Below are positions 5,811 to 18,994 of a DNA stretch of 64,000 nt, piece after piece; position 1 is the stretch's first letter, and every line of letters starts with the position of its first letter. Origin of the DNA: Haloactinospora alba (lineage in GTDB: Bacteria; Actinomycetota; Actinomycetes; Streptosporangiales; Streptosporangiaceae). The DNA lies in contig NZ_VFQC01000001.1 of NCBI RefSeq assembly GCF_006717075.1, forward strand, positions 3,147,501 through 3,211,500, read 5' to 3'. The position numbers and the translations under genes were made by a program. The notes under the pieces were generated by a model, which saw nothing but the letters and a program-made list of their open reading frames with translations, made no database searches and was not told the origin of the DNA.

Positions 5811-6956
5811 TCACCCGGCGAGTGCCTGCCGCAGGTCGGCGAGCAGGTCCTCGGCCGCCTCGATACCGACCGACAGCCGCACCAGGTCAGCGGGCACCTC
5901 CAGCGCCGACCCGGCCGTCGAGGAGTGCGTCATCCTCCCCGGGTGCTCGATCAACGACTCCACCCCTCCCAGGGACTCGCCCAGCGTGAACACCCGCGCC
6001 CGCTCGCACAGCCGCAGCGCGGCGTCCTCGCCGCCGGACAGCCGGACCGACACCATGCCGCCGAAACCCGACATCTGGTTCGCGGCCACCTTGTGCCCCG
6101 GATGGTCCGCCAGGCCGGGGTAGAGCACCTCCCGCACCGCCGGGTGCTCGGACAGCTCCCGGACGACGCGCTCGGCGTTGGCGCAGTGCCGGTCCATCCG
6201 CACCCCGAGCGTCTTCACCCCCCGCAGCGTCAGCCAGGAGTCGAACGGCCCCGCGATGGCGCCCATGGTCTTCTGGTGGAACGCCAGCCGCTCCCCCAGC
6301 TCGGCGTCGGCGGCCACCAGCGCACCACCGACGACGTCGGAGTGGCCCCCCAGGTACTTGGTGGTGGAGTGCGCCACCACGTCCGCCCCGAGGGCGAGCG
6401 GCTGCTGCAGGTAGGGCGAGGCGAAGGTGTTGTCCACCACCAGCAGCGCTCCCGCCTCGTGGGCGATGCCGGCGAGCGCCGCGATGTCGGTGACGTTCAG
6501 CAACGGGTTCGTCGGCGTCTCCGTCCAGACCGCCACGGTCTCGGGACGGATGGCGGCGCGCACCGCCTCCGGGTCGGTCTGGGGCACCGCATCCCAGCTC
6601 ACCCCCCACCGCTGCAGCACGGTGGAGAACAGCCGGAACGTCCCCCCGTAGGCGTCGTCGGGGATGATCACGTGGTCGCCCGGCCCCGCGATGGTGCGCA
6701 GCAGCGTGTCCTCGGCCGCCATCCCGGAGGCGAACGCGAGACCGCGCGCGCCGGACTCCAGTGCCGCCAGGCACTCCTCCAGCGCGCTACGCGTGGGATT
6801 GGCCGCACGTGAGTACTCGTAGCCCCCGCGCAGCCCGCCGACACTGTCCTGGGCGTAGGTGCTGGTCTGGTGGATCGGGACCACGACCGAACCGGTACCG
6901 GCGTCGGCTTCCTGTCCCGCGTGGATCGCGCGTGTGTCAAACCCGTCGAACGTCAT
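5811..6956 (-). CDS. metB: cystathionine gamma-synthase/lyase
   Basis: A 381-residue Cys/Met-metabolism PLP-dependent enzyme. The N-terminus (TRAIHAGQ, IHQTSTYAQ), the substrate-site YEYSRAANPTR and the PLP-lysine motif HSTTKYLGGHSDVVGG are all intact. Such enzymes condense O-acyl-homoserine with cysteine, or run as gamma-lyases on cystathionine; sequence alone does not separate the two. With cystathionine beta-synthase nearby at 7795-9162, a reverse transsulfuration role (methionine to cysteine) is likely. The start at 6956 matches the family N-terminus; its ribosome site is weak. Confidence 0.92.
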   Translation of the reverse strand: MTFDGFDTRAIHAGQEADAGTGSVVVPIHQTSTYAQDSVGGLRGGYEYSRAANPTRSALEECLAALESGARGLAFASGMAAEDTLLRTIAGPGDHVIIPDDAYGGTFRLFSTVLQRWGVSWDAVPQTDPEAVRAAIRPETVAVWTETPTNPLLNVTDIAALAGIAHEAGALLVVDNTFASPYLQQPLALGADVVAHSTTKYLGGHSDVVGGALVAADAELGERLAFHQKTMGAIAGPFDSWLTLRGVKTLGVRMDRHCANAERVVRELSEHPAVREVLYPGLADHPGHKVAANQMSGFGGMVSVRLSGGEDAALRLCERARVFTLGESLGGVESLIEHPGRMTHSSTAGSALEVPADLVRLSVGIEAAEDLLADLRQALAG

Positions 6957-13475: not shown

Positions 13476-14492
13476 TCACCGGTGGGAAAGACGGACGTGT
13501 GCCCGCCAACCGGTGGCGGTGGGACGCAGCGCGGCGGTGAGCTCCTCGGCGGTGGGACGTCCGCAGCGGTCCCACTCGGCGACGAGGGCGCGCAGCCGCC
13601 GCAGTGCGGGGGAACCGGACGCGTCGGCGCGGAAGCCGCCCCCCTCGGGGCCGCAGGTGTGCACCGCGATCCGGGAGCCGCGCGCAACGCCGTATCCGAT
13701 CTCGGTGCCGCGACCGGTGGAGACGAGCCCCTGCGGGCGCCGGGCGAGCAGCCACAGCCGCAGGTGGTCGCTCTGGGGCCACGCGATGTCGCTGGGAACG
13801 GTGTGCTCCGCCGCGCGCAGCGACCGCAACAGGTGTTCGGCGGCGCTGGGGCGGCCGCGCAGCCAGGTGGCCGAGACGTAGTCCCCTTCCTCTTGAGCGT
13901 TGCTGGACCCGGACTCCACTGGAACGTGCCACGGCGTGTGCATCCGCCCGTAGGCGCCCCGGTGCAGGTGGACCGTGCGGGGGCGCGCACCGGATCCGAC
14001 GGTTGCGCGCAGCATTCCGGTGGCGTACGCCACCGGCGCCAGCGGCAGCGGCAGCAGCACGCGGGCGCCCTCGACCGCCTGGCACAGCCACTCCCCGGGT
14101 AGCTCCTCGGGGGTCGCCCAGGCCACGATCCGGTCGAAGGGACCGTACTCGGCGGCGCCGTGGCGGCCGTCGCGGGCGAGGCTGGTGACGTTGGTGTAAC
14201 CGGCCGCGACGTGCAGACGCGCGGCGCGTTCCACCAGGGTCTCCTCCAGGTCGATGCTGACCACGTGACCGCGCGGCCCGACCGTCTCGGCCAGCAGCGC
14301 TGTGGACAGTCCGGAACCGGTGCCCACCTCCAACACCCGTTGCCCCGGGTGGGGATCGAGAAGACGGAGGTGGCGGGCGATAGTGGCGGTGTCGGTGCGC
14401 TGGCGCACCGCCCGTCCGTCCGCACCCCGATAGTGGGATTCGGGCACGGCGCGCAGGGCGCGTTCCACCCGCTCGTCGGTCACCTCGACCAT
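13476..14492 (-). CDS. PIMT-like methyltransferase of a lasso peptide cluster
   Basis: A 338-residue homologue of protein-L-isoaspartate O-methyltransferase. The SAM-binding core is clear (RVLEVGTGSGLSTALLAE near residues 65-82; VVSIDLEETLVERA after it). About 120 extra C-terminal residues follow the usual PIMT fold, which standalone repair enzymes lack. AAAGGA precedes ATG 14492. It is the last gene of a five-gene lasso operon. Lasso-associated PIMT homologues with such extensions are known to methylate an aspartate in the peptide, leading to aspartimide or isoaspartate. I infer the same role here, with Asp6 of the predicted core as target. Confidence 0.85.
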   Translation of the reverse strand: MVEVTDERVERALRAVPESHYRGADGRAVRQRTDTATIARHLRLLDPHPGQRVLEVGTGSGLSTALLAETVGPRGHVVSIDLEETLVERAARLHVAAGYTNVTSLARDGRHGAAEYGPFDRIVAWATPEELPGEWLCQAVEGARVLLPLPLAPVAYATGMLRATVGSGARPRTVHLHRGAYGRMHTPWHVPVESGSSNAQEEGDYVSATWLRGRPSAAEHLLRSLRAAEHTVPSDIAWPQSDHLRLWLLARRPQGLVSTGRGTEIGYGVARGSRIAVHTCGPEGGGFRADASGSPALRRLRALVAEWDRCGRPTAEELTAALRPTATGWRAHVRLSHR

Positions 14493-14527
14493 GCTCGGTC
14501 CTTTCCGCTGTCGGATATCGTCGCTGT

Positions 14528-14941
14528 TCAGATTCGGACGGTGGGGTGGAACGTCTGGCCGGACCACTCCTCGCCGACCGGCTGGAGTCGTGTCTCGATC
14601 CAGGCATGCGCGGCGAAGGGCCGGACCCGGCAACCGATACACCAGTCCACCGAACGGCGATGCAGGGTCGCTGCGAGCAGGACTGCCAACGAGATCTCCA
14701 GGCAGGCGGTCCGGCCGGGATACCAGTGGCTCACCGCTCGGCAGGCGGCCACGATCTCGTCGGCTCGCGTGTGGCTGGTGGAACGGCGGGCGCCTCGTTT
14801 CGCCAGTCGAGCCGCCGCGAGAGTGAACCGCAGTGGGGTGAAGCGCAACAGTAGAAGAGCCGCCAATAAACCGCCGCAGGCTGTGACCCGGTCACGGATA
14901 CGGGGAGCGGGTCCGGGGGCGGATACCATACGCACGCTCAC
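14528..14941 (-). CDS. lasso peptide leader protease (B2, transglutaminase-like)
   Basis: A 137-residue transglutaminase-fold cysteine protease of the lasso B2 / microcin J25-McjB C-terminal type. It removes the leader from the precursor. The catalytic Cys is in GRTACLEISLAV and the His in HAWIETRL; an N-terminal hydrophobic stretch (GGLLAALLLLRF) is present as is common in this family. The GTG at 14941 overlaps the B1 stop as GTGA, so the two proteins are translationally coupled. Confidence 0.9.
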   Translation of the reverse strand: MSVRMVSAPGPAPRIRDRVTACGGLLAALLLLRFTPLRFTLAAARLAKRGARRSTSHTRADEIVAACRAVSHWYPGRTACLEISLAVLLAATLHRRSVDWCIGCRVRPFAAHAWIETRLQPVGEEWSGQTFHPTVRI

Positions 14942-15231
14942 CACGGCCTCCACCTCCGTTCCTGCGGGGAGGAAACGAGGCCGTGCTGACGGAGCTGTTC
15001 GGTGAGAGCTTCCATGTCCTCGCGTACCCGACGGGGGTCTACCCCGTAGCGCCGGGCGATCCGCCTGGATGCCTCGCTCGGGAGGGCCCCTTGGGAGAGC
15101 AGGTACCAGAAACACCCTCCTGTCGGAGTGAGCGCGAACCACCGGCCGCGCCCCCGTGTGTCGAGCAGCATGGTCCCCTGAGAAGTGAACGTCGTGTACA
15201 CGTTCCGGTGGGGGCGGAGAGAGTCGTCCAT
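14938..15231 (-). CDS. lasso RRE protein (B1, PqqD-like)
   Basis: A 97-residue PqqD-like RiPP recognition element that binds the precursor leader and presents it to the B2 protease. The pattern LLDTRGRGRWFALTPTGGCFWYLL followed by helices (ASRRIARRYGVDPRRVREDMEALTEQL) is typical. ATG 15231 starts just after the cyclase stop (15234), with GGAGGGAGCGAC upstream. The leader motif it should bind, YEAPAV, is present in the precursor at 17090-17206. Confidence 0.9.
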   Translation of the reverse strand: MDDSLRPHRNVYTTFTSQGTMLLDTRGRGRWFALTPTGGCFWYLLSQGALPSEASRRIARRYGVDPRRVREDMEALTEQLRQHGLVSSPQERRWRPW

Positions 15232-15233
15232 GG

Positions 15234-17030
15234 TCAGAAGTCGCTCCCTCCGTGTGCGGCTACCGGCCTTTCGTTGTGGGCGAGCCATAGCTCGGCGGCG
15301 AGAAAGGACTCGAACAGCGCCAGCCGACCGGGGGCGCCTGCAATCAGACGTTCCAGGTCATCTCGGACAGCGTTTCGGTCGATAACACCCCGGTCGGCAA
15401 GGCGTGACTCATGCACTATCTGGCGCAGGGTGGCGGCGTTGGCGTGAATGCTCGTGTAAGCGGCAGTGTCGTGACTCCCCTTGGTAGGGCGTTCCAGTAC
15501 GTAACGAGGAACCAAGCCCTCCAATGCGGATCCGAGCAGCGGTTTCTGCCGATGCGTTGAGTACCGCTGTGCGACAGGTAGGGACATGCAGGCGCGGATC
15601 ACCTCGTTGTCCAGGAACGGAGAGTCGAGATACACCCCCACAGCTGAGAACTGGGCCCGGCGTTCGGCGTGGTGCGTCCCGTACTCGTGGAGCTCGGCCC
15701 AGGCCCGGTCGCGGCTGCTGGGCTGGGAAGCTGAATCGCGGGCCGCGGCTTGTGCGGCTGCGTGGGCGCGCTGCGCCAGTTCCTTCTGGGCGTCCTTGGT
15801 GAGCCATGCCGCGAAGCTGGGGGGCGGAAACCAGGTGAGACGGTCTTTGGGCCTGGGGCGGCGCCACGTACCGTCCGGATTCTCCACGGAGCTGGCAAAG
15901 CTGCGGAGCGCTTGTGATGGGGAGGTGCGCGCGAGTGCGAAGGAGCGTGACAGCACCGACGCTGTCGCTTGGTGACGCGTGTCGGCGTAGTCGCGAGCGT
16001 GCTGGAGGAGCGAACGCCACTGTGGGGGAGCCGTGAGGTCGGCCAAGGCGAAGGGAACGGAAGCGAGTAGTGTGTCTCCTCCCGAACCGGAAAGGTGAAG
16101 GGTGCTCCCGTGCGCACGGATCATCTGGTGGTAGGAGGTGTGCGTTCCCCAGCGTGGCGCGTCGCTGAAGAGTTGGTCTGTAGGCGGAACCCGGTCGAGT
16201 TGTGTGAAGAGCGCGTGCCTCTCGTCGTGCACGACGCGGTGGTGCAGGTTCGGGAACTCTTCCGCGCAGGCGATGGCATAGCGTTGGTCCTCGTCCTCAG
16301 CGCCGGTTGTTCGGGTCAGTGCTAACAGTGGCGCGCGTGTCGCCTGGGCCGTGAGCAACGCGATGCTCGATGAGTCCAGTCCGCCGCTGAGGTCGGTACT
16401 GATCGGTCCGGTGGTGTTGCGGACACGTGCGAGAACGGCTCGGAGAAGTGCGTGACGTAGGCGTGGAGCTGCCACGCCGGAGTCCGTGTGCGGGGGTGGA
16501 GGCTCGTAGGGCCGCACCACTGAGCCTGTGGGAGTGACGTGTAGTAGATGGCCTCCCGGAACGCGGTACACCTCACGGAACGTCGTGCGTTCCGCGACGA
16601 TCTCCGGAACCGTGGGGCAGGTCAGTAGCGCCGAGAGCGCAGTGTCGTCCAGTGCCCTCTGGTGGGATGCTGCGAGCAAGCGGGCGGACGAGGACCACGC
16701 GCAGCCGTGCGGGTGGCTCGTGTAGTACACCGGCCGGGAGCCGCAGAGGTCGGTAAGGACCGTGGTGGTTCCCTGGTGCCAGGCGATCACCCAGTACGAT
16801 CCGGGCCAGTGGGTGAGCCTCTGCCACTGTCGCGCGCGCACGGCTGTTATGCCCTCGTGCACCTCGGCGTCCGACGCGTGGCAGGATCCGACTACAGCGA
16901 TGGCGGTGTCCTCCGCTACAGCCGTACGGATGCGGGTTCCCTGCTGAGCGGAGACGCGGGGCGCGGTCGGCCAGTCCCACAGAGCGGTGCCGTGTCCAGC
17001 GGCCGAGTACCGGTCCGCGATCCAGAGCAT
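15234..17030 (-). CDS. lasso peptide cyclase (asparagine synthetase-like, C)
   Basis: A 598-residue ATP-dependent lasso cyclase that adenylates an Asp or Glu side chain and forms the macrolactam with the core N-terminus. The N-terminal Ntn-like glutaminase fold lacks the catalytic Cys (the protein begins MLWIADRYSA), as usual for lasso cyclases. The PP-loop STDLSGGLDSSSIALL lies near residue 235 and a second conserved segment LSGSGGDTLL follows. GGGAGG sits five bases before ATG 17030. Base composition looks less GC-rich than the housekeeping genes around it, consistent with transfer. Confidence 0.93.
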   Translation of the reverse strand: MLWIADRYSAAGHGTALWDWPTAPRVSAQQGTRIRTAVAEDTAIAVVGSCHASDAEVHEGITAVRARQWQRLTHWPGSYWVIAWHQGTTTVLTDLCGSRPVYYTSHPHGCAWSSSARLLAASHQRALDDTALSALLTCPTVPEIVAERTTFREVYRVPGGHLLHVTPTGSVVRPYEPPPPHTDSGVAAPRLRHALLRAVLARVRNTTGPISTDLSGGLDSSSIALLTAQATRAPLLALTRTTGAEDEDQRYAIACAEEFPNLHHRVVHDERHALFTQLDRVPPTDQLFSDAPRWGTHTSYHQMIRAHGSTLHLSGSGGDTLLASVPFALADLTAPPQWRSLLQHARDYADTRHQATASVLSRSFALARTSPSQALRSFASSVENPDGTWRRPRPKDRLTWFPPPSFAAWLTKDAQKELAQRAHAAAQAAARDSASQPSSRDRAWAELHEYGTHHAERRAQFSAVGVYLDSPFLDNEVIRACMSLPVAQRYSTHRQKPLLGSALEGLVPRYVLERPTKGSHDTAAYTSIHANAATLRQIVHESRLADRGVIDRNAVRDDLERLIAGAPGRLALFESFLAAELWLAHNERPVAAHGGSDF

Positions 17031-17089
17031 GCTGGCCTCCCGACTCTTCCGACCGTGGGGCGAGGAGCCCACCCCACGGTGAACGGCCG

Positions 17090-17206
17090 CTACTCGAAGT
17101 AGCGCTCCTGGTCCATGCTGTCCTCGGCGTATCGGCCCAGCGTGGCTTCGTCAGCCGTGTCCAACTCGACCACAGCGGGGGCTTCGTAGTACTCGTGCGG
17201 CTCCAA
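17090..17206 (-). CDS. lasso precursor peptide (A)
   Basis: A 38-residue precursor: leader with the RRE-binding motif YEAPAV and a penultimate Thr (..EATL), then a predicted 15-residue core GRYAEDSMDQERYFE. Gly1 to Asp9 would give a nine-residue macrolactam ring, leaving a six-residue tail with bulky Arg12/Tyr13/Phe14 as plugs. Asp6-Ser7 lies inside the ring, a likely site for the cluster's PIMT homologue. I choose the TTG at 17206 because AAGGAG lies nine bases upstream; longer frames would run through the promoter palindrome at 17248-17270. The cyclase starts 59 bases downstream. Confidence 0.85.
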   Translation of the reverse strand: MEPHEYYEAPAVVELDTADEATLGRYAEDSMDQERYFE

Positions 17207-17313: not shown

Positions 17314-17342
17314 GTGACACTCGGAGTTATTCCATTCATAAT
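17314..17342 (+). promoter_or_regulatory. sigma70-like promoter of the small protein/DUF6879/XRE operon
   Basis: GTGACA (17314-17319), a 17-base spacer and CATAAT (17337-17342). The -10 is inside palindrome 2, so a bound repressor would block polymerase. Confidence 0.65.
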
Positions 17343-17371: not shown

Positions 17372-17575
17372 ATGGAGCTGGCGCGTATAGCTGGCGATTG
17401 TCCTGATCGCCGCACATGCCCCACTCTGTACGAGACCGACCGGGATACGGTCCTCGTGCAGGGATACGAACTACCGCCCGAGGAGCACACCCGCCTGGCG
17501 GTGCCGGAAGGTGAGTCCGTGGTCGAGATCCCCAAGTCCCTGTTGCAGGAGGCCGCCCGTGCTGACCGCGTCTGA
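17372..17575 (+). CDS. small protein of the DUF6879/XRE operon
   Basis: A 67-residue acidic protein, family not recognised. It begins MELARIAGDCPDRRTCPTLYET, with two cysteines six residues apart, and ends in a helix (ESVVEIPKSLLQEAARADRV). CAGGAGG precedes ATG 17372. The stop overlaps the DUF6879 start. Small genes of this kind often head DUF6879-XRE operons in actinomycetes. Confidence 0.72.
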   Translation: MELARIAGDCPDRRTCPTLYETDRDTVLVQGYELPPEEHTRLAVPEGESVVEIPKSLLQEAARADRV

Positions 17576-18107
17576 ACTCGGCGACTACATCGAGTCCCGC
17601 CTCACCCGCTCGGCGTTCCGCTTGGAGGTTCTGGACCGCTACGAGGTCGCCGCGGACGGCGGGGACTTCGCCCGTTATCTCGCGGGGGAGCCAGACCCCG
17701 ACTACGAACGCAAACAGCCTTGGCTGGATCAACTCACTGCTGAGTACGAGGCCGGGATCCTGAACCACCGGGTACACGTACTGCGCACGCCCCTGAGCGA
17801 CTACCTGCGCTACGAGTGCGAATGGGGCTACCTCCTCAACGCGCGGGCTGGGGAGGAGATCCACATCATCGATCTGGCTGAGCAGCCGGAGCCGGAAGGG
17901 CTGGTCGATCACGACTTCTGGCTCGTTGACGACCGTTACGGTCTCCGCATGTACTACTCCCCGGAAGGGCGGTTCCACGGAGCGGAGCCCGTTGACGATA
18001 TCGTCTCCTACCAGTACGCGCGGGATGCCGCGCTCGCGGCAGCGCAGCCGTTCGAACGGTGGTGGAACCGGCATCCGGAGGAATGGAGAGCCAACCAGCC
18101 TGTATGA
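17559..18107 (+). CDS. DUF6879 family protein
   Basis: A 182-residue protein with the DUF6879 signature: an N-terminal FRLEVLDRYEV segment, RYLAGEPDP, a central HRVHVLRTPLSDYLRYECEWGY, and DFWLVDDRYGLRMYYSPEGRF. Its biochemical role is unknown, but it regularly sits beside DUF5753-containing XRE regulators. The GTG at 17559 overlaps the end of the preceding gene by 17 bases and follows GCAGGAGG. Confidence 0.83.
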   Translation: MLTASELGDYIESRLTRSAFRLEVLDRYEVAADGGDFARYLAGEPDPDYERKQPWLDQLTAEYEAGILNHRVHVLRTPLSDYLRYECEWGYLLNARAGEEIHIIDLAEQPEPEGLVDHDFWLVDDRYGLRMYYSPEGRFHGAEPVDDIVSYQYARDAALAAAQPFERWWNRHPEEWRANQPV

Positions 18108-18994
18108 CACCGCCAACGTCGCATGAGGCCGGGCACGGACCGACGGACCGCGCCCGGCTCGCACGTGCGCTCCGGGAGGCCCGCCGCGCCGCTGGCATCG
18201 GCGGTATCGAGGCCGGCCGCCGCGCCGGGATCTCGCAGTCCAAGGTCTCCAAGGTGGAACGCGGCCTGCTGGTGCCGACGGTGTCGGATGTGCAGGCCCT
18301 GAGCGAGGTCTACGGACTCGCCGCAGCGGATCGGGACCACCTGTGCGCGCTGGCGGCCGGGCTGCGCGAGGAGTCGTCGGCGCGGGTCATCCTCTCCCGG
18401 GGAGTCGCGAACTTCCAGCGCCGCATCGGAGAGATGGAGAGCTCGGGTTCGCTCGTACGCTCGTTCCAACCGGTCCTCGTACCGGGAACGCTGCAGACCG
18501 CCGACTACTCCCGCTGTGTGTTCCGCGCGGCCGCTCCCGGTGTTCAGCTTCCCGAGGAGGAGGTCGAAGCGGCCGTCACCGAACGCCTCACCCGCCGCGC
18601 ACGGCTCGGCGAGGACGGTACGCGGCACCGGATCGTGGTCACGGAGGGGGCGCTGCGCTGGCAGGCGTGTTCCGCCCGGACCATGGCCGAGCAGACGGAG
18701 ACACTCCTCAGCGCTCTCTCCTGGCCCGGGGTCATGCTCGGCCTGATCCCGTGGAGTACGCCCGTACGCGTGTTTCCCGGGCACGGCTTCCACATCTACG
18801 ACGAGGACGCCGTGATCGTCGGCACCGAGACCGCCACCGCCACTCTCACCAGCGCGGCCGACCTCGCCACGTACCGGGACCTGTTCACCGCCTTGGAGGG
18901 GACCGCCCGCTTCGGCGCGGACGCGCGCCCCCACTTGGAGCGTATCGCCGCGGAGTACCGCGCGCTGGACGCGGAACCGGATGGGCAGCGTTGA
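18104..18994 (+). CDS. XRE family regulator with DUF5753 domain
   Basis: A 296-residue regulator: HTH near residues 20-75 (GIEAGRRAGISQSKVSKVERGLLVPTVSDV) and a C-terminal DUF5753 domain (FQPVLVPGTLQTADYSR ... VMLGLIPWSTPV) of WhiJ-like regulators. ATG 18104 overlaps the DUF6879 stop as ATGA. I infer that it binds the palindromes at 17248 and 17327 and thereby links its own operon to the lasso genes; the sequence does not prove it. A decayed DUF397 gene lies 31 bases beyond its stop, facing it. Confidence 0.88.
   Translation: MTPPTSHEAGHGPTDRARLARALREARRAAGIGGIEAGRRAGISQSKVSKVERGLLVPTVSDVQALSEVYGLAAADRDHLCALAAGLREESSARVILSRGVANFQRRIGEMESSGSLVRSFQPVLVPGTLQTADYSRCVFRAAAPGVQLPEEEVEAAVTERLTRRARLGEDGTRHRIVVTEGALRWQACSARTMAEQTETLLSALSWPGVMLGLIPWSTPVRVFPGHGFHIYDEDAVIVGTETATATLTSAADLATYRDLFTALEGTARFGADARPHLERIAAEYRALDAEPDGQR

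Follow-up and report, generated by a model that had tools for sequence, protein, structure and literature searches.

A predicted lassimiditide gene cluster in Haloactinospora alba and a putative control operon linked to it by palindromes

Cellulonodin-2, from Thermobifida cellulosilytica, and lihuanodin, from Lihuaxuella thermophila, are lasso peptides in which residues 6 to 9 read D-T-A-D, with D6 converted to an aspartimide and D9 held in the isopeptide bond (PMC13001092, PMC9266682). Each pairs a nine-residue lasso ring bearing Asp6 and Asp9 with a protein isoaspartyl methyltransferase (PIMT; TceM and LihM, respectively) of the type found with ribosomally synthesized and posttranslationally modified peptides (RiPPs), which carries a WXXXGXP motif. 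Mining by the Link and Kim groups has yielded sets of 48, 58, and 67 biosynthetic gene clusters (BGCs) for such group 1 aspartimidylated lasso peptides (lassimiditides), with the ring motif D(T/S)AD; Ser7 is already known from 7 of 58 of them (PMC13001092). Here we analyzed a 64,000-nucleotide stretch of the Haloactinospora alba genome (NZ_VFQC01000001.1, positions 3,147,501 to 3,211,500; "the window"), which holds a complete cluster of the same composition. Taken as a whole, the locus is best explained as a lassimiditide BGC whose precursor gene is probably controlled by a divergent operon through two palindromes, a reading to which we assign a probability of roughly 0.87. A preliminary description had proposed an aspartimide lasso cluster, and this proposal is supported by the D6-[ST]7-D9 register of the precursor, the WXXXGXP motif of the methyltransferase, its position in a clade of lasso-cluster enzymes, and its best matches, which lie in lasso clusters. 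Compared by published description, the locus differs from cellulonodin-2 and lihuanodin in having D-S-M-D for D-T-A-D, a charged RYFE tail, and the divergent operon with palindromes of its own; its ring resembles the mined D(T/S)AD motif, from which Met8 departs at Ala8.

The cluster consists of five minus-strand open reading frames (ORFs), which follow one another as A, C, B1, B2, and M between 17206 and 13476 (Table 1), and the recomputed genes, order, strand, and ends all agree with the preliminary description. So does the tight coupling of C, B1, and B2: C and B1 abut, B1 and B2 overlap by GTGA, and a gap of 35 nucleotides separates B2 from M. The cyclase, the RiPP recognition element (RRE), and the leader peptidase that together mark a lasso BGC are all present. 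The C protein exceeds the curated NCBIfam cutoff of NF033561, the albusnodin/ikarugamycin macrolactam cyclase model, B1 scores under the cutoff of lasso_PqqD_Strm, and B2 is the sole Transglut_core3 (PF13471) match in the genome. The ATG at 15231 was picked by eye as the start of B1 within ORF 14938-15288. The A-C-B1-B2-M order was found again in many genomes, with A homologues (E of about 1e-8 to 1e-10) preceding the closest C genes, and the arrangement therefore exceeds chance. As first noted, the cluster lacks an exporter gene: no PF00664-type ABC exporter (ABC_membrane) lies within 500 kb, other exporter types not having been searched. A plasmid search gave no match. Loss of C, B1, or B2 in several relatives raises the alternative of a silent or decaying cluster that has no product. 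We regard this as improbable, given that all five genes are open, adjacent ones touch or overlap, and several genera have kept the core.

Table 1. Positions in the window of the lasso cluster and the adjoining control region
Feature	Position	Strand	Basis and remarks
M, RiPP-type PIMT (aspartyl O-methyltransferase) with C-terminal extension	13476-14492	-	PCMT 1.9e-24
B2, transglutaminase-like leader peptidase	14528-14941	-	NF033537 (lasso_biosyn_B2) 1.4e-22, above cutoff; Transglut_core3 1.4e-19
B1, PqqD-type leader-binding protein (RRE)	~14938-15231	-	PqqD 7.3e-11; lasso_PqqD_Strm 9.1e-15
C, asparagine-synthetase-like macrolactam (isopeptide) cyclase	15234-17030	-	NF033561 3.5e-98; Asn_synthase 1.4e-38
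A, lasso precursor	17090-17206	-	reading frame; 38-residue ORF; TTG start 17206; stop 17090
Operator-like palindrome 1, TATTCCATTGGTAATGGAATAA	17249-17270		A side; genome pattern search
Operator-like palindrome 2, TATTCCATTCATAATGGGATAA	17328-17349		79 bp from palindrome 1
S67, 67-residue small protein	17372-17575	+	homologues beside other lassimiditide clusters, E 1e-11 to 1e-14
DUF6879 protein	17559-18107	+	PF21806 2.2e-41; start inferred, ORF 17511-18107
XRE, helix-turn-helix and DUF5753 regulator	18104-18994	+	PF19054 2.3e-34; HTH_31 3.7e-13; start inferred, ORF 18059-18994

The A gene is preceded by GGAAGGAG and encodes the leader MEPHEYYEAPAVVELDTADEATL and the core GRYAEDSMDQERYFE (core codons 17093-17137). 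Its match to lasso_leader_L3 is weak (E of 0.08, under the cutoff), and it has the features expected of a lasso precursor, namely, Y..P in the leader, Thr at -2, Gly1, and Asp9. The core reads in the register G1, E5, D6, S7, M8, D9, E11, Y13, F14, with a C-terminal Glu. A nine-residue ring closed by D9 is expected, and by analogy with cellulonodin-2 and lihuanodin, D6-S7 should be the aspartimide site; the Asp-Ser dyad pointed out previously in the predicted ring thus coincides with the known position. The D6-S7-x-D9 arrangement is that of group 1 lassimiditides, in which D6 is followed by Thr or Ser and the ring Asp is residue 9. Residues 10 to 12, which follow the ring, are Q-E-R and include no Asp, so that the conserved loop Asp of group 2 is absent. 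When A was aligned with 21 other lasso precursors (n = 22), the leader Y and P, G1, D6, D9, and a tail Tyr were invariant, and position 7 was Ser or Thr in 22 of 22. The core ends in Glu and also holds E5 and E11, which leaves room for the idea that M targets the C-terminal Glu or some other acid for esterification, in the manner of StspM, which acts at the C terminus of a lassomycin-like peptide. This is very improbable in our view: the C-terminal residue varies among the aligned precursors (E, D, N, Y, W), whereas D6 never does, and StspM is modeled on a different methyltransferase and works on the precursor before maturation (PMC9266682).

A search with C across 343 genomes of the family found homologues in 30, including that of the window itself. 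All 20 of the C loci with an adjoining M and a readable precursor carried D6-[ST]7-x-D9; at one more locus, L059, M is 4 kb distant. Readable precursors without M were found at five loci, of which four are albusnodin-like and have Gly6 where the window has Asp6 (L018, L023, L027, and L030) and one is of another type (L037); the rows of this comparison are not independent of one another. Albusnodin itself is acetylated (PMC8120280). Albusnodin-type clusters, including that of Streptomyces albus, have a cyclase of the same NCBIfam family, which forms a neighbor group in the tree to the cyclases described below. A PIMT of M's clade is found in Streptomyces sp. DH12 about 2 kb after B2 of an albusnodin-type cluster (L088:10521-11534).

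The family search, together with a scan of genome contigs, gave ten clusters, spread over four or more genera, with the core G[KR][YF]AED[ST]xDxxRYF[ED] (the RYFE type). They are those of the window, Nocardiopsis halophila, N. chromatogenes, N. endophytica, a Nocardiopsaceae metagenome-assembled genome, Nonomuraea lactucae, Promicromonospora thailandica, Streptomyces boncukensis, S. megasporus, and Streptomyces sp. ISL-100. The ten cyclases fall into a single clade (support 100/99), and an approximately unbiased test of the RYFE-type M proteins as one clade gave a p value of 0.057. The core had been described as unlike others; this did not hold, since nine other clusters carry close homologues of it. 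No identical known cluster, which would have counted against the preliminary description, was found in what could be searched, and some of the relatives found here probably belong to the published lassimiditide sets. Judged by its sequences, the cluster belongs to a known kind of system and to a distinct subfamily of it. This RYFE subfamily of predicted aspartimide lasso clusters is compact and well bounded. At two loci (L016 and L017; wider loci L045 and L046), the cores GDVPEDSEDNDRYFTDVGVGVDDA and GNVPEDSEDNDRYFTDVGVGVDDDA have a long C-terminal tail past the RYF block, which is perhaps trimmed later.

In M, the PIMT core (PCMT match) spans residues 36 to 149 only. An extension C-terminal to it had been described, and it is seen as a second domain in the AlphaFold model (mean predicted local distance difference test score, 88) and in the WXXXGXP motif, here W307-DRC-G311-R-P313. 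This motif is reported for RiPP PIMTs (PMC13001092), and an extension that bears it characterizes the PIMT homologues of group 1 lassimiditides. Across 22 M proteins, W307 and G311 are invariant and P313 is nearly so. The best Protein Data Bank match of the model is 1dl5, a two-domain Thermotoga PIMT, with a full-length root mean square deviation of about 10, such that only the core fold is secure.

On the strength of its PIMT core and PF01135 match, M might be taken for a general isoaspartyl repair enzyme that lies beside a plain lasso cluster by chance. However, its TIGR00080 (pimt) score was 76.5 bits against a cutoff of 159, below what a canonical repair PIMT would reach; the extension with WXXXGXP speaks against such an enzyme, as does the fact that M goes together with a D6-bearing precursor. 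In the tree, M grouped with the M proteins of lasso clusters (support 100/100), and 12 of 12 other placed PIMT homologues of its own genome (G000, 4.9 Mb; L060-L071) fell outside, several of them with XRE genes nearby. Eight of the twelve were scanned against family models: five are FxLD-system enzymes above the cutoff, and three score best on a graspetide-type model, below its cutoff. The remaining four join the graspetide-type group by tree alone. An open search with M across 347 genomes of the order gave matches at E ≤ 1e-32 in 36 genomes, and the best of these (E of 1e-93 to 1e-95) lie in Nocardiopsis lasso clusters, not outside lasso clusters as a repair enzyme had been supposed to require. 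We therefore hold the repair enzyme to be extremely improbable.

A second PIMT adjoins the lasso M at L084:9427-10782, L040:10083-11303, and L045:2784-4055. That of L084 is of the FxLD-system type, above the NCBIfam cutoff, and those of L040 and L045 join the FxLD enzymes by tree.

Gene content, residue register, family placement, and conservation were computed here, and every chemical step of the following scheme is carried over from TceM and LihM. B1 would bind the leader, and B2 would cleave after Leu-1, with Thr at -2. C would then link the Gly1 amine to the Asp9 side chain around the tail, with Y13 and F14 as likely plugs. On the threaded peptide, M would methylate Asp6 in an S-adenosylmethionine-dependent reaction, and the Ser7 amide would spontaneously expel methanol to give the aspartimide at D6-S7; one ring aspartate thus probably becomes an aspartimide. 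The predicted monoisotopic masses are 1876.769 Da for the lasso, 1890.784 Da for the methyl ester, and 1858.758 Da for the aspartimide. The corresponding [M+2H]2+ ions would fall at m/z 939.392, 946.399, and 930.386.

With Ser7 in the core, the lasso could also be made and M could leave isoaspartate at Asp6 as the end product, the aspartimide being transient and Ser7 not steering hydrolysis as Thr7 does. A T7L substitution in lihuanodin diverts hydrolysis to isoaspartate, and the peptide unthreads (PMC13001092, PMC13352647); isoaspartate is also the usual outcome in other RiPP classes (PMC13001092). Against this stand the retention of Ser or Thr at position 7 in every aligned precursor and the exchange of the two between close sister clusters, Ser in N. 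halophila and Thr in N. chromatogenes, both with K8. This interchange suggests that the β-hydroxyl common to both residues is what counts, and we consider isoaspartate as the end product unlikely. With the hydroxyl kept across the swap, such natural pairs make the cause of the unusual hydrolysis to Asp testable.

The putative aspartimide lasso cluster faces a divergent operon of S67, DUF6879, and XRE genes, in which XRE starts within DUF6879 by an ATGA overlap. Both operator-like palindromes sit between A and this operon. At up to one mismatch, these were the only two sites of the pattern in the genome, and one further site appeared at two mismatches. A promoter-like plus-strand site, GTGACA-17-CATAAT, lies at 17314-17342, and its -10 hexamer overlaps palindrome 2; no sigma-70-like promoter for A scored above the scan threshold. 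Close XRE homologues (51 to 59% identity) had the palindrome at the same place in 7 of 7 loci, in one or two copies, and distant homologues (about 40% identity) had it in 0 of 5. The shared consensus is about TATTCCATTnnTAATGGAATA, often in two copies 54 to 79 bp apart, and S67 homologues occur in seven other palindrome loci as well (at L158 by position). Relatives of the S67-DUF6879-XRE genes also lie beside many further lassimiditide clusters, where the palindrome of the window was not found. On these sequence patterns, the most likely role of the divergent operon is to control A by way of the two palindromes, the candidate binder being one of S67, DUF6879, and XRE. Activation is as possible as repression, since the Streptomyces XRE-type regulator WhiJ9 binds direct repeats next to the gene that encodes it and activates a neighbor (PMC10294661).

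Several observations weigh against the reading of the locus as a lassimiditide BGC under the control of this operon. The pairing of regulator and operator is drawn solely from their co-occurrence. A has Met8 in place of the consensus Ala8, a residue that we took as nondefining; the clusters of the single RYFE cyclase clade, all of them with M proteins, have Met, Gln, Lys, or Ala at this position, which is therefore not a fixed site. Lasso-type M proteins also occur outside intact lasso clusters, in apparently decayed lasso loci (L124 and L152-L155), next to a protein of about 100 residues in genus g39, and where no lasso genes were found (L156 and L158), so that M alone is no proof of a lasso substrate. 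Where placed in the tree, these proteins nest within the lasso-M clade, which suggests that lasso M proteins have been reused elsewhere.

What the palindrome faces in the other loci extends beyond lasso clusters. At L158 and L184-L187 it faces a gene for a small Gly/Pro/Lys/Asp-rich peptide and a PIMT gene, as in imiditides, a label given by composition and gene order following PMC13001092 and not by a family model. At L182 it faces a partial ATP-grasp peptide maturase (graspetide). In L183, near 6373-6470 and behind the same palindrome, is a broken locus with a lassimiditide precursor (...VVLGSGSQDTADMNTSRYW / ...GSGSQDTADMNTSRYW) and a truncated C. Imiditides (type I pamtides) and graspimiditides use PIMTs of the same broad family as M, and imiditide-like loci share the XRE-type control operon and palindrome; they differ from the window in their scaffolds (linear and omega-ester, respectively) and in PIMT clades apart from M. 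Assignment of the extra PIMT at L158 to the FxLD type was rejected: its nearest NCBIfam model is the graspetide-type one, below cutoff, and the preceding peptide resembles an imiditide precursor.

These loci led us to a tentative proposal, with the odds somewhat against it, that the S67-DUF6879-XRE genes and the palindrome form an exchangeable cassette dedicated to aspartimide RiPPs of any scaffold, whether lasso, imiditide-like, or graspetide. It stands apart from the RYFE subfamily and the Ser/Thr pairs found there in nature, and is less certain. Among the five distant XRE homologues, one (L180) also has a PIMT nearby, and PIMT neighbors may therefore be more frequent across this regulator family as a whole. 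XRE-DUF5753 genes near graspetides have been reported (PMC8939145, PMC13097080); the palindrome and its sharing between RiPP classes were not found in the literature searched. The shared regulator and palindrome open a way to study when several classes of aspartimide RiPPs are turned on. A 2026 review names the biological function of these RiPPs as an open question (PMC13001092), on which the cassette, if real, would bear: chemically unrelated aspartimide peptides would respond to signals of one kind and might share a role in the producer.

Some related loci showed further peculiarities. At L156:2909-4015, a ThiF-like E1 protein with a weak match to a leader-binding domain of thiazole/oxazole-modified microcins adjoins a lasso-type M and S67-DUF6879-XRE genes; lasso genes were not found there. 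In four loci of one genus (g39; L160, L161, L164, and L165), a lasso-type M lies directly 3' of a conserved protein of about 100 residues (MAENFEELPAPSSVRLIDFEEARVVPG...), again with no lasso genes found, and this protein is possibly another PIMT substrate. A hybrid cluster at L059 (G176:C34:222476-236116) and L126 (G176:C34:216000-224500) has a lasso precursor whose core is probably SGNCCDTADKGAYYW, in a Ser1 register with D6 and D9. Its genes run A, C, B1, YcaO, nitroreductase, a second YcaO, B2, TfuA, and a PIMT with WRAAGRP, and further ORFs look by eye like an ABC transporter, another YcaO, and TfuA. By its gene content, the product is possibly a lasso peptide that combines azole or thioamide with aspartimide chemistry; a TfuA cluster with an albusnodin-like precursor is known from Nonomuraea solani (PMC8120280).

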